From assembly GCA_003647765.1 (NCBI GenBank), contig QMNM01000028.1, positions 1 to 10,227 of the forward strand: DNA of 10,227 nucleotides, read 5' to 3'. The notes under the pieces are model-generated. The model had not been told where the DNA came from, ran no database searches, and saw nothing but the letters and a program-made list of their open reading frames with translations. How positions within the stretch are numbered: the first letter of the stretch is position 1; every line of letters begins with the position of its first letter. This document shows, in pieces, positions 3 to 8,235 of this stretch. Source of the stretch: Candidatus Cloacimonadota bacterium. GTDB taxonomy: Bacteria; Cloacimonadota; Cloacimonadia; JGIOTU-2; B8-G9. The position numbers were made by a program, and so were the translations under genes.

Positions 3-164
3 TCACCTGATATACCTGGATGTGTGACTACTGATAGAACACGAAAAGAAGTGGAGAAAAATATGCGTGAAGCCATTAAATTTCATATTGATGGGATTCG
101 CTAAGAAAGTTATAAGATTCCTGAATCACAAAGTTATGCAATATATGCTGAAGTGCCTGCCTAA
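3..164 (+). pseudogene. hicB: HicB-family antitoxin, C-terminal part, interrupted by an in-frame stop
   Basis: The frame starting at base 3 reads SPDIPGCVTTDRTRKEVEKN, then MREAIKFHIDGIR. This matches the HicB signature (a PGC-type turn, then a helix of the form EAxxNMREAIxxHIxGLR). HicB is the antitoxin that binds and silences the HicA mRNA interferase; hicA would lie just left of the window. After GIR there is a TAA (102-104), but the same frame continues with ESYKIPESQSYAIYAEVPA to a second TAA (162-164), and that tail still looks like the normal HicB end (xxIPEPSSxAxYVEV). The second TAA sits inside the attC R'' heptamer GCCTAAC, just as the antitoxin stop does in the third cassette, so the ancestral gene most likely ended there. 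The N-terminus is outside the window. The truncated product may still work, since the lost 19 residues lie at the very end. Family assignment is fairly sure; loss of function is inference. Confidence 0.72.
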
Positions 165-294
165 CATTCGTTCCACTTGACAGAAACGCAGTGCGACTTT
201 AGGCTAACGCTTGTTATGCCAGTTTAAAGTTAATCACAAAATTTAAGGACATAGAACCATTTGCATTTTTGGCAAGTGAACTCTGCCGTTAGAA
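159..294 (+). repeat. attC recombination site 1
   Basis: R'' is GCCTAAC (159-165) and R' is GTTAGAA (288-294), a 136-bp site. Inside, CGTTCCACTTGACAG on the left pairs with the reverse complement of CAAGTGAAC near 273-281, leaving one unpaired C, as expected for the extrahelical base of the L''/L' boxes. Further in, AGAAACGCAGTG pairs imperfectly with CATTTGCATTTTTGG. About 60 internal bases (for example TTAATC, AAATTTAAGGACATAGA) are shared with the other two sites. The length is like the long VCR-type sites of Vibrio. Confidence 0.75.
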
Positions 295-310
295 GTCACT
301 CTTATTTTAG

Positions 311-316
311 TATAAT
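311..316 (+). promoter_or_regulatory. Possible -10 box for the first complete toxin-antitoxin cassette
   Basis: A perfect TATAAT lies just inside the cassette, 33 bases before the TTG at 346 and 39 before the ATG at 355. The hexamer 17 bp upstream (GTTAGA, 288-293) is only a weak -35 match and would overlap the attC R' box. Toxin-antitoxin cassettes often carry their own promoter; in A+T-rich DNA a lone TATAAT is weak evidence. Confidence 0.35.
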
Positions 317-354
317 ATTGACTTTTTCTATATAGGTTTATTATTTTGACTAAA

Positions 355-585
355 ATGAAATTTACTAAACATTTCCGTGATATGCTTATTGAGCGGAAAA
401 TCAAATTGGAATGGGTTGATCAAGCATTGAGTAGTCCTGATAAAGTAATGAGTGAACCCGATGGAACAACCCACTATTTACGGAGAATTCCAGGGCACGG
501 TAATCGTTGGCTTCGGGTTATAGTAAACACTACGGTTAAGCCCAGTAAAGCCGTGACAGTATTTTTTGACAGGAGACTTAAATGA
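355..585 (+). CDS. DUF4258-like toxin of a cassette-borne toxin-antitoxin pair
   Basis: A small basic protein of 76 residues from the ATG at 355, or 79 from an in-frame TTG at 346, which has a weak AGG 9 bases upstream. It opens KFTKHFRDMLIERKIKLEWV, the family's start (β-strand, then HFxxRxxER-I plus a VxxAL helix), continues with a P-x-K-V turn, and ends FFDRRLK, the basic C-terminal motif. DUF4258 proteins have a small RelE/BrnT-like fold and are usually paired with an antitoxin; action as an RNase is assumed from that fold, not shown. The stop overlaps the start of the next gene as ATGA. The terminal Arg-Arg codons, AGG AGA (571-576), also serve as the ribosome binding site of the antitoxin. 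It is paralogous to the toxin at 994-1236. Confidence 0.8.
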   Translation: MKFTKHFRDMLIERKIKLEWVDQALSSPDKVMSEPDGTTHYLRRIPGHGNRWLRVIVNTTVKPSKAVTVFFDRRLK

Positions 586-782
586 GAATAAAATTAGATA
601 AAGAGGGTGATGCACTCTATTTTCGTCTTTCCGATGAAGACATCTTGGAATCCGAAGAAGTTCGCCCCGGAGTAATTCTTGATTTTGATGATAAAGGACG
701 TGTTGTTGGCGTTGAGTTTCTCAATATTTCTGAACGTACGAATCAACAAGAAATATCTAACCTGCAATTTCAAACAGCATAA
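582..782 (+). CDS. DUF2283-family antitoxin partner
   Basis: A 66-residue acidic protein with the classic DUF2283 pattern: a strand with DxEGDALYFRLS, the core SEEVRPGVILDFDDKGRVVGVEFL, then a divergent tail (ERTNQQEISNLQFQTA). Proteins of this family commonly follow a DUF4258 toxin gene and are taken to neutralise it by direct binding. Its ATG overlaps the toxin stop (ATGA, 582-585), and an AGGAGA begins 11 bases before the start inside the toxin coding sequence, so translation is coupled. The gene ends 30 bp before the attC R'' heptamer. The variable tail is the likely site of partner specificity, because the paralogue at 1233 differs completely there. Confidence 0.8.
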   Translation: MRIKLDKEGDALYFRLSDEDILESEEVRPGVILDFDDKGRVVGVEFLNISERTNQQEISNLQFQTA

Positions 783-812
783 ATCAAAATAATCTATAAT
801 GTACAGAGTGCC

Positions 813-946
813 TTCTAACCCTCGCTTCACTTGACCTGAAACGTAGTGCGACAATTAACTAATGGCTATTATGCCAGAAAAGTTAATCTCAAAATTAAAG
901 ACATAGAGCCAAATTGCGTTTCTGCAAGTAAACTCCACCGTTAGGC
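813..946 (+). repeat. attC recombination site 2
   Basis: R'' is TTCTAAC (813-819) and R' is GTTAGGC (940-946), giving 134 bp. CGCTTCACTTGACCTG on the left pairs with the reverse complement of CTGCAAGTAAACTCC on the right, and GAAACGTAGTGC on the left aligns with the reverse complement of the segment around TTGCGTTTC. The centre shares GGCTATTATGCCAG and GTTAATCTCAAAATT with the neighbouring sites. The heptamers do not pair with each other but each pairs with its own cassette's other end, as expected for cassettes of different origin. Confidence 0.75.
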
Positions 947-993
947 AGAAATTCTTTTATTCTGAACTAAAACTTCATTAAATAAGATATGTG

Positions 994-1236
994 ATGTTAA
1001 AATATAAATTTACTAAATATTTTGAAAATAAGGTCTTGATAAAACGACCTTATCTTAAAAAGGAATGGTGTATTCGGGTTTTAGAGAAACCAATTAAAGT
1101 AGAAAGACAGGAAGGTAATAGATATCGTTTTTGGGGTATAATCCCCGAGTTGGGTGACAAATTTCTTCGCGTAGTAACTTTAGATGATAAAATAACAATT
1201 CATAATGCCTTCCCGGATAGGAGATTTAAAAGATGA
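994..1236 (+). CDS. DUF4258-like toxin, second cassette pair
   Basis: An 80-residue protein from the ATG at 994; a GTG at 991 is an alternative. No clear ribosome binding site is visible. It starts MLKYKFTKYFENKVLIKR, aligning with the toxin at 355, and keeps the EW helix start, the P-x-K-V turn, the strand pair around FLRVVTLDDKITIHNAF and the terminal DRRFKR. The two toxins are clearly homologous but well diverged, so they are independent cassettes rather than a recent duplication. It overlaps its antitoxin by ATGA. The Arg-Arg codons AGG AGA (1219-1224) sit 8 bases before the antitoxin start and provide its Shine-Dalgarno. Function as an mRNA-directed toxin is inferred from fold and pairing. 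Confidence 0.77.
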   Translation: MLKYKFTKYFENKVLIKRPYLKKEWCIRVLEKPIKVERQEGNRYRFWGIIPELGDKFLRVVTLDDKITIHNAFPDRRFKR

Positions 1237-1451
1237 AATTAACATATTTTCCTGAAACAGATTCACTTTATATTGATTTATCTATCAAGAGTAGCGTAAA
1301 AAGTGAAGAGATTTCAGAAGGTGTAGTTCTGGATTATGATTCAGAAGATAATCTTGTAGGGATCGATATAGACAATGCCAGTAGGAAATTAGATTTATCT
1401 GAATTAATAACGATAAAAATGCCCATAGTTTCCCAAAGAATTTCTGCCTAA
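1233..1451 (+). CDS. DUF2283-family antitoxin, second cassette pair
   Basis: 72 residues with the DUF2283 layout: YFPETDSLYIDLS, then SEEISEGVVLDYDSEDNLVG, then IDIDNAS and a private tail (RKLDLSELITIKMPIVSQ and four more). It is coupled to the toxin by a 4-base overlap and the AGGAGA inside the toxin's last codons. Its TAA stop (1449-1451) lies within the attC R'' heptamer GCCTAAC, so the cassette has almost no spare sequence at its end. Compared with the antitoxin at 582, the core is conserved and the C-terminal tail is unrelated, consistent with different partner specificity. Confidence 0.8.
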   Translation: MKLTYFPETDSLYIDLSIKSSVKSEEISEGVVLDYDSEDNLVGIDIDNASRKLDLSELITIKMPIVSQRISA

Positions 1452-1642
1452 CCACCGCTTCACCTCTTAAGAAAGTAATTTACTTTCATTTATAAAAGAA
1501 CTCCGATGTATGGTAGAAGAGTAGCTGACAGAAACGCAATGCCATCTTTAATCTAACGGCTATATTTCCAGAAAAGGTTAATCTCACAATTTAAGGATAT
1601 AGAGCCATTTGTGTTTTTGGCAAGTGAGATTATCCGTTATAT
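1446..1642 (+). repeat. attC recombination site 3, with an internal insert
   Basis: R'' is GCCTAAC (1446-1452) and R' is GTTATAT (1636-1642). The site follows sites 1 and 2 up to CGCTTCAC (ending 1463) and again from TGACAGAAACGC (1526 on), through GGTTAATCTCACAATTTAAGG to the L'-like TTGGCAAGTGAGATTATCC. Between these lie about 62 extra bases (1464-1525). Without the insert the length would be 135 bp, equal to the other two sites. R' is not complementary to this cassette's own R'' and departs from GTTRRRY at one base, as could happen where the array meets non-cassette DNA. Confidence 0.68.
1464..1525. other. 62-bp insert inside attC site 3
   Basis: This sequence is absent from the equivalent position of attC sites 1 and 2. 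It contains a perfect inverted repeat GAAAGTAA-t-TTACTTTC (1471-1487), and its ends carry CTCTT and AAGAG in inverted orientation. It splits the L''-side arm of the stem, where integrase binding is expected. No coding potential is seen. Confidence 0.5.
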
Positions 1643-1667: not shown

Positions 1668-3263
1668 TCACTTAATTATTGTATCTTTTTCAAATTTTTT
1701 TAATGTCTTTGGATAATCGCTATTATAATGCAATCCTCTACTCTCCTTACGAGATATAGCAGAACGGACAATTAAATATGCAATGGTAATTAGATTTCTG
1801 GTTTCAATTAAATCTTGCCGTATTGGATTTCTATGGTAAAATTCTTCTACCTCTTTGTAAAATACTTTAATCCATTGTCTTGCGAATTCCAGCCTACGAT
1901 TAGACCTAACAATTCCTACATAGTTCCACATCATCTCTTTTAATGCATTTTTATTGTGTGATATGATAATCCATTCATGCTCGTCAAATACATTCTCTTC
2001 ACTCCATTGTGGAATTGCTGGGAAGTCAACATCATCGTTATTTTCTGGAAGTTTAGCACAATTATATGCGGTAACAAGGCCCTCTAACAAGGAATTAGAA
2101 GCAAGCCGATTTGCTCCATGTAGACCAATACAAGCAGTTTCTCCAATTGCATATAAATTTTTTATATCTGTCTTGCCGTCAATTCCAGCCAGAATTCCAC
2201 CACAACTATAATGAGCAGCTGGCACAACAGGTATCATATCCTTGCAAAAATCAATGTCATGTTCATAACATTGCTGAAATATATTAGGAAATCGCTTTTT
2301 CATTTTCTCACTGTCAAGATGAGTTAAGTCCAAATATACATAGCTATTGCCATTCTTTATCATTTCGTAATTTATAGATTGTGATACAATATCACGAGGT
2401 GCCAATTCTGCAAGCTTATGATACCTTGTCATAAATCTTTCACCATTCTGTAGTCGTAGATATGCACCTTCTCCTCTAACAGCTTCTGAAATTAAAAAAC
2501 TTTCTCCTTCTGGATTATAAAATGTTGTAGGATGGAACTGTATGAACTCCATATTAGCGACTCTTGCACTTGCACGAAATGCAATAGCAACTCCATCCCC
2601 AGTAGCAATTTTTGAATTGGTTGTATGCAGATAGACCTGTGAACATCCACCTGTTGCTAATACTGTCTTTTTTGCCAGAAATCTATTTACCCTTCTTTTT
2701 TTCATATCAAAAACATAGGCACCCCAGCAAGTAATACCTGTCCTGTATGCATCTAATCCCTTTATATGATGTTGTGTAATTAAGTCCACTGCCATAAAAT
2801 ATTCGTAAATCTTTATATTAGGATGCTCTTTTACTTTCTTTATCAACGCGCGTTCAACTTCCACTCCTGTCCAATCATCAGCGTGAACTATACGGCGATG
2901 AGAATGCGCACCTTCCTTTCCTAAATTTAAGTTATGCAAATTTGGTAACTTGCCATCTATTGTGGTAAAATGAACTCCCATATCTATTAAATCTCTAATT
3001 CTATCAGCTGCACAGGAAACAACCTCTCTAATTACAGGTAAATGATTTAATCTTACACCAGCTTGATAAGTATCTTGAATATGGGATTCAATGCTATCCT
3101 CATCATCTAAAACAGCTGCTATACCGCCCTGTGCTAATTTAGTGTTGGACTCTGATAGCTCACTTTTTGTAATAATGATTACTTGCCCCCTTTTTGCAGA
3201 TTCAATTGCAAATGTAAGTCCTGCAATGCCACTACCTATTACTAAAAAATCCGTTTTTATCAT
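1668..3263 (-). CDS. nadB: L-aspartate oxidase (quinolinate synthesis, NAD biosynthesis)
   Basis: NadB oxidises L-aspartate to iminoaspartate with FAD, supplying quinolinate synthase (NadA) in de novo NAD synthesis; in anaerobes fumarate can replace oxygen as acceptor. The 531-residue protein (E. coli NadB is 540) has the dinucleotide fold GSGIAGL (10-16), the SNTKLAQGGIAAVL segment (39-52), EGAHSHRR (117-124), QFHPTTF (242-248), APRDIVSQ (288-295), PAAHYSCGGI (348-357) and GANRLASNSLLEGLV (383-397). His244, Arg290, His351 and Arg386 fall at the same numbers as the known E. coli catalytic residues. SRGLHYNSDYP near the C-terminus is also typical and separates it from fumarate reductase flavoproteins. 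The ATG has GGGAG 6 bases upstream (complement of 3270-3274). No nadA or nadC is adjacent. Its 3' end lies 25 bp from the last attC, facing the cassettes tail to tail. Confidence 0.96.
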   Translation of the reverse strand: MIKTDFLVIGSGIAGLTFAIESAKRGQVIIITKSELSESNTKLAQGGIAAVLDDEDSIESHIQDTYQAGVRLNHLPVIREVVSCAADRIRDLIDMGVHFTTIDGKLPNLHNLNLGKEGAHSHRRIVHADDWTGVEVERALIKKVKEHPNIKIYEYFMAVDLITQHHIKGLDAYRTGITCWGAYVFDMKKRRVNRFLAKKTVLATGGCSQVYLHTTNSKIATGDGVAIAFRASARVANMEFIQFHPTTFYNPEGESFLISEAVRGEGAYLRLQNGERFMTRYHKLAELAPRDIVSQSINYEMIKNGNSYVYLDLTHLDSEKMKKRFPNIFQQCYEHDIDFCKDMIPVVPAAHYSCGGILAGIDGKTDIKNLYAIGETACIGLHGANRLASNSLLEGLVTAYNCAKLPENNDDVDFPAIPQWSEENVFDEHEWIIISHNKNALKEMMWNYVGIVRSNRRLEFARQWIKVFYKEVEEFYHRNPIRQDLIETRNLITIAYLIVRSAISRKESRGLHYNSDYPKTLKKFEKDTIIK

Positions 3264-7842: not shown

Positions 7843-7990
7843 ATTTTAAAGAATAACTGAGCTTACGCAAAAGATGTCTTTAATATTGAACTGCTATCTT
7901 TATGTTTTAGTTTTTCAAATTCTAAAAAAATCTATGAGTCCATTATAAAAACCATTAAAATGGTTAAAATGTGGTTATTGTATTCTCTTA

Positions 7991-8010
7991 CCCACAACTG
8001 AAGTTGTGGG
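7991..8010 (+). repeat. Hairpin 1 of the fold-back
   Basis: CCCACAACT, loop GA, AGTTGTGGG: a perfect 9-bp stem. It is not followed by a T-run on either strand, which argues against an intrinsic terminator. Confidence 0.75.
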
Positions 8011-8045
8011 CTTCAGTTCACCATCTTTCATAGAATCAGAATTAG

Positions 8046-8065
8046 CCCACAGTTTTAACTGTGGG
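8046..8065 (-). repeat. Hairpin 2 of the fold-back
   Basis: CCCACAGTT, loop TT, AACTGTGGG: a perfect 9-bp stem in the opposite orientation to hairpin 1, judged by the flanks (AG before, TA after, against TA before and CT after in hairpin 1). Stem bases 7-9 differ from hairpin 1 with both sides changed together, so pairing is maintained. Confidence 0.75.
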
Positions 8066-8235
8066 TAAAATGTAAAAAAACCTAATTCTAACCTATTCAG
8101 TGGTTTTTAGACTAAGATCATTAGTTTTTTGAAAATTTTTATTGTAAGTTAATTCTTGCACTATCTGCGTAAAGTGAGAGAATAATATATGATGAATAAT
8201 TCTCTGTGCCTCTGTGGTAAAGTAATTTAGTTTTT

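Follow-up and report, generated by a model that had tools for sequence, protein, structure and literature searches.

The locus raises the question of whether three related repeats lying between short genes at the start of a contig are attC sites of an integron and, if so, where the integrase is. The window, which is the entire 10,227-nucleotide contig C28 of a Candidatus Cloacimonadota metagenome-assembled genome (MAG; G000, 1.97 Mb, 360 contigs, 88.8% complete), contains three attC sites along with two whole cassettes and the end portion of one more. It is interpreted as the 3′ end of a Candidatus Cloacimonadota integron cassette array with no integrase on the contig, a reading to which a probability of about 95% is assigned. 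The integron cassette reading of the original prediction is upheld by the complementarity of the cassette ends, the folding of the circular attC sites, the arrays and IntI proteins of relatives, and the precisely bounded movement of cassette 2. In the comparison set, G000 is the sole member of its own family (genomes and contigs are numbered G and C); the relatives include two genomes of the same order, G008 and G006, which correspond by contig name to Candidatus Cloacimonadota bacterium NIOZ-UU1 and NIOZ-UU3, respectively. The array adjoins nadB (L-aspartate oxidase; positions 1668–3263, minus strand; Pfam FAD_binding_2, E = 4e-88, and Succ_DH_flav_C), which forms its chromosomal flank and whose product is 65% identical to NadB of G005 and 40–42% identical to NadB of most other full-length relatives. 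Beyond the array, the window consists of chromosomal sequence: besides nadB, it encodes a MatE transporter, an MscS-type channel, phosphatidylserine decarboxylase and a CDP-alcohol phosphatidyltransferase, and it contains one large unassigned ORF. An intergenic inverted repeat with 25-nt arms (TTACCCACAACTGAAGTTGTGGGCT and AGCCCACAGTTTTAACTGTGGGTAA) is also observed at positions 7988–8068, and a similar motif is found at C217 (~1640–1780).

The three sites lie on the plus strand and share pairwise identities of 76–78%. Site s1 (159–294, 136 bp) extends from the R″ box GCCTAAC (159–165) to the R′ box GTTAGAA (288–294), site s2 (813–946, 134 bp) from TTCTAAC (813–819) to GTTAGGC (940–946), and site s3 (1446–1642, 197 bp) from GCCTAAC (1446–1452) to GTTATAT (1636–1642). 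AAC and GTT cores are present in the R″ and R′ boxes, and the L″ and L′ arms pair on the bottom strand, as in s1, leaving unpaired bases. With starts at 159, 813 and 1446, at least two attC sites of the same orientation occur within 4 kb. Three related, imperfectly palindromic plus-strand sites with short same-strand gene pairs between them are present as originally predicted. The predicted length of 134–136 bp holds for s1 and s2 and fails for s3, and the R′ boxes of s1 and s3 match the predicted GTTRRRY type only loosely. The length of s3 is explained by a palindrome-rich insert of ~61 nt (~1464–1524) that interrupts the site after CGCTTCAC, has the ends CTCTT and AAGAG and is missing from s1 and s2. 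A second copy of this ~61–66-nt piece, which has a GATGTAT core, is located at C29:2711–2775 with 91% identity. An Rfam scan of the window gave no match. Covariation among six sites of the genome is modest overall, with 85.8% paired versus ~40% in slid controls; the signal is clear only relative to these and weak relative to shuffles.

Within a linear array, every attC site is composite and takes its 5′ core from the preceding cassette and its last bases from the next one. The 5′ core should therefore complement the start of its own cassette rather than the 3′ end of the site. The R″ region does complement the beginning of its own cassette, with 14 of 15 matching bases in cassette 1 (288–302 versus 805–819) and 18 of 18 in cassette 2 (940–957 versus 1435–1452), while the two ends within one attC match over 4–5 bases only. 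Unrelated site pairs, used as the control, have a mean score of 6.0, and 0.4% of them reach 12. Strong pairing between cassette ends, with little within a site, is what excision of the units in circular form would produce. Moreover, when the circular attC sites were rebuilt, their bottom strands folded with z-scores of −4.6 for cassette 1 and −4.7 for cassette 2 (−4.9 without the insert). The linear sites fold with z-scores between −0.2 and −1.4, no better than shuffled sequences, so that the bottom-strand folding check proposed in the original prediction is negative for the linear form and positive for the rebuilt one. Linear-site folding was dropped as evidence against attC once the circular form had been rebuilt and folded. 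The end complementarity and the circular-site folding are the decisive internal evidence for attC.

Sites of this type are not confined to the window. A covariance model (R1) built from the six own-genome sites was searched against 124 genomes of the class and detected attC-like sites in 13 of them, 11 of which belong to the order of the window. The arrays of these relatives comprise two to four sites, the largest array of four being that of G008:C381, and single sites also occur. The end-complementarity test, which is independent of the covariance model, is positive in several of these genomes, with full matches for instance in G008:C381 (13/13), G008:C389 (14/14) and G013:C128 (15/15). Several attC sites of the relatives match the upstream cassette start over 9–17 bases at plausible distances, and many of these matches exceed shuffled controls. 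Hairpin inserts are located at fixed attC positions in G003, G008, G009 and G013, and include a 67–68-nt piece, ACCCCGTTAGATA...TCTAACGGGGT, that itself ends like attC cores.

Neither intI nor attI was found on the contig of the window, which does not contain a complete integron with a functional intI beside an attI and an array. In the rest of the genome, intI is represented by a remnant at C173:90–314 (locus L009, 75–368) that encodes residues 5–79 (~75 residues) with 60% identity to IntI of G006. The remnant is positioned inside its contig and is followed by unrelated sequence, which indicates that it is not cut by the contig edge. A search of the genome for the attI of G008 gave no match. 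The earlier statement that no integrase is visible, with an orphan attC cluster as one option, agrees with these results, the IntI remnant on another contig being all that was found. The array in the window is a CALIN, an attC cluster without integrase. It fits the published definition (PMC9668308), which asks for at least two attC sites spaced by under 4 kb and for the lack of intI; however, the left edge of the contig falls within the array, which leaves room for an intI beyond that edge.

Relatives retain the integrase. Full-length IntI proteins above the curated cut-off are encoded in G002 (where the stretch is crossed by one TAG), G003, G006, G008 and G026, each matching the IntI family model over its full length. 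IntI of G008 scores 463 bits against TIGR02249, for which the cut-off is 265, and its best match among solved structures is VchIntIA from Vibrio cholerae (2a3v), aligned over residues 6–317 through the integron-specific region. An attI-like G^TTAG start is observed 139 bp (G003), 218 bp (G002) or 277 bp (G008) upstream of intI, and these sites follow an AT-rich sequence also present where other cassettes begin. In G003:C4, intI, an attI-like site and an attC are found on one contig, which corresponds in part to a complete integron; the intervening stretch is 4.2 kb long, with an end match of 11 that is no higher than the top value among 50 shuffles.

Cassette 2 (941–1636, plus strand), the ends of which are complementary at all 18 positions, provides a record of movement between genomes. 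Copies of its body (940–1452) occur in G009:C60 (98% DNA identity), G002:C52 (97%) and G008:C43 (94%) over 511–513 bp, and G002:C22 holds a fragment with 89% identity. The RpoA proteins of G009, G002 and G008 are just 53–58% identical to that of the window, and NadB is 41% identical in G002 and G008; the search in G009 returned no closer counterpart than a distant NadB-like protein. All four full-length copies, including that of the window, begin to agree at the G(TT) point and remain alike until just past R″, and their upstream flanks differ between genomes. The flank in G002:C52 matches the attI-like sequence upstream of intI in G008, and the flank in G002:C22 matches that upstream of intI in G002 itself; both G002 copies begin directly behind these attI-like sequences. 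The unit is thus present in three other genomes with the same borders and different flanks, and its sharing is, judged from these sequence comparisons, lateral transfer of a defined unit across genera. Misbinning of one contig is an unlikely cause because the flanks differ and the copies diverge by 2–6%. Cassette 1 (289–940, plus strand) begins immediately after the G^TT point in s1 and ends at the G in s2; a search for it across the order turned up just one match, 59 bp at the R″ end, in G002.

The four copies of cassette 2 diverge after the L″ box. In the window, s3 continues with the insert and then with an attC of the window's own type, and the copy in G009 carries an attC of a different type with a 67-nt insert. 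The copies in G002 and G008 end in other palindromic sequence, and their attC is interrupted or eroded. With the inserts left out, s3 and the G009:C60 attC are ~71% identical. The cassette body and its attC may have separate histories, with the attC arms replaced or converted after transfer, although this idea is tentative and is considered rather doubtful. Hairpin inserts starting at the point of divergence are possibly the route of such replacement. Gene conversion has been proposed behind the likeness of attC sites within a Vibrio genome (PMC1382264). Replacement or conversion would fit the divergence in cassette 2, but one cassette is too few to settle the matter. If true, the mismatch between body and attC would reveal how the attC sites of one genome come to resemble each other, and if general, it would make the within-species likeness of attC sites testable from genomes.

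In the proposed mechanism, the tyrosine recombinase IntI, which is complete in relatives and remnant or missing here, would act on the folded bottom strand of attC and cleave it at G^TT. Each cassette would be released in circular form and then enter attI or a different attC, or more rarely some other chromosomal position. Whether the array still takes part in such exchange is the point on which an alternative fares best, namely that the array is a non-functional relic on which no integrase acts in the lineage any more. This is a realistic possibility, if somewhat the less probable one. The 75-residue IntI remnant, the interrupted s3, the single attC copies without AAC and GTT cores and a frameshifted DUF2442 gene on C97 are all compatible with decay. 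Against decay, s1 and s2 are intact, and the 97–98% identity of cassette 2 in other genera points to movement that is recent on that scale. Moreover, an intact intI may be missing from a MAG that is 89% complete, and IntI proteins from elsewhere could act in trans.

The cassettes of the array contain putative toxin–antitoxin pairs. Cassette 0 is interrupted by the contig edge and retains the 3′ end of a HicB-like antitoxin gene (3–104, plus strand; 33 residues; Pfam HicB_lk_antitox, E = 2e-5, below the curated cut-off). Cassette 1 encodes a DUF4258 protein, a putative toxin of the RelE/ParE superfamily (346–585, plus strand; PF14076, E = 2.4e-10), followed by a DUF2283 protein (582–782, plus strand; PF10049, E = 1.4e-17), a putative antitoxin by virtue of this pairing. 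Cassette 2 repeats the arrangement with a diverged DUF4258-like putative toxin (991–1236, plus strand) and a second DUF2283 putative antitoxin (1233–1451, plus strand; PF10049, E = 1.5e-17), the stop codon of which is located inside R″ of s3. The product of 991–1236 gave no Pfam hit and is 38% identical to the product of 346–585 over 61 residues (E = 1e-9). In both cassettes, a toxin-family gene is adjacent to a small partner, with which it overlaps by 4 bases. As a putative type II toxin–antitoxin module, the DUF4258 protein and its DUF2283 partner would tend to protect the cassettes from loss, as in Vibrio arrays.

The toxin–antitoxin content named in the original prediction holds at the family level for DUF4258, which has been placed among the BECR-fold RelE/ParE-superfamily type II toxin families (PMC11980606); the HicB-like fragment falls below its cut-off, and the antitoxin role of DUF2283 is suggested by pairing. 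The gene pairs could instead be ordinary accessory genes that do not form toxin–antitoxin modules. No function is described for DUF2283 in the literature searched, the antitoxin precedes the toxin in the published gene order for DUF4258 (PMC11980606), which is the reverse of the order in the window, and NCBIfam and PADLOC gave no hit for the toxin–antitoxin genes. This alternative is nevertheless unlikely in view of the toxin-family placement of DUF4258, the 4-base overlap in both pairs and the contents of other cassettes in the lineage, which encode HicA/HicB, ParE-like, RelB-like, DUF4160/DUF2442 and DUF2281/PIN proteins. A PDB sequence search with DUF4258 and DUF2283 returned nothing meaningful, a DNA search of phage records gave no match, and neither did an IMG/VR scan for the DUF2283 protein.

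Outside arrays, the genome contains full-length single attC copies on C97, C101, C41 and C217 and a half copy on C71. These copies have degraded R boxes that have lost the AAC and GTT cores, and three of the four full copies are without an identified cassette. The original prediction had named repeats occurring singly across the genome without cassettes as a sign against attC; such copies exist in part, but the C97 copy retains the remains of a toxin–antitoxin cassette. On C97 (locus L015, 2775–3494), a frameshifted DUF2442 gene and an attC are located between rpsD and rpoA, where the gap is 722 bp versus 16–196 bp in 17 loci of relatives. An intact DUF4160–DUF2442 cassette is found in G008:C123, with the 5′ core ACATAAC in place of the ACATAAT of C97. 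On C101 (locus L012, 4640–4800), an attC-like element directly follows rpiB, whose stop codon it provides, and no gene of a cassette is seen. The single copies look like old off-target insertions. That the repeats are instead a dispersed palindromic (MITE- or REP-like) element between short genes is highly improbable, since such an element would account for the single copies and the palindromic inserts within attC but does not predict the 14/15 and 18/18 complementarity of the flanks of successive copies, the joint transfer of the DNA between copies, bounded by G^TT and R″, attI-like sites beside a real intI, or the DUF2442 cassette remnant of C97 with its intact relative in G008:C123. The cassette-end test rejects this idea, and the cassette 2 borders and the attI-like sites also largely refute it.

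The integron reading extends integrons, with the integrase and attI-like sites of relatives, to Candidatus Cloacimonadota. The phylum is absent from the 2021 list of integron-bearing phyla in PMC8618304, the one list checked, and no paper in the literature searched joins integrons with Cloacimonadota, an absence that is not proof that none exists. The array resembles the sedentary chromosomal integron of Vibrio (VCR) in the likeness of its attC sites within a genome, its two-gene cassettes rich in toxin–antitoxin pairs, its mobility, and the closeness of the relatives' IntI to VchIntIA in the PDB. It differs from the Vibrio integron in its three sites (two to four in the arrays of relatives), the lack of a linked intI here and an attC family of the lineage's own with hairpin inserts. 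As with archaeal integrons (PMC9668308), the parts are found in MAGs outside the usual host range and mostly as CALINs, but the phylum is bacterial, full IntI proteins and attI-like sites occur in the class, and a cassette is traced between genera. The new elements are the phylum, the occurrence in nature of insertion outside arrays, the association of one cassette body with attC sites that vary by host, and the hairpin inserts in attC. Cassette 2 provides a traceable case of one putative toxin–antitoxin cassette crossing genera.

With the single cassettes, among them the rpsD–rpoA copy, the genome offers natural cases of cassettes that settled outside arrays. Insertion outside the integron is known from attG-type events, as cited in PMC12444791, and 'de-recruited' cassettes have been described (PMC1382264). 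The C97 copy, in which one cassette and its attC sit in the chromosome away from arrays, is similar to these events but is natural, decayed and positioned in a ribosomal-protein operon, and its target site is no longer readable. As a separate observation on rpoA, the matches in seven relatives of group g4 each show one TGA within the matched stretch.
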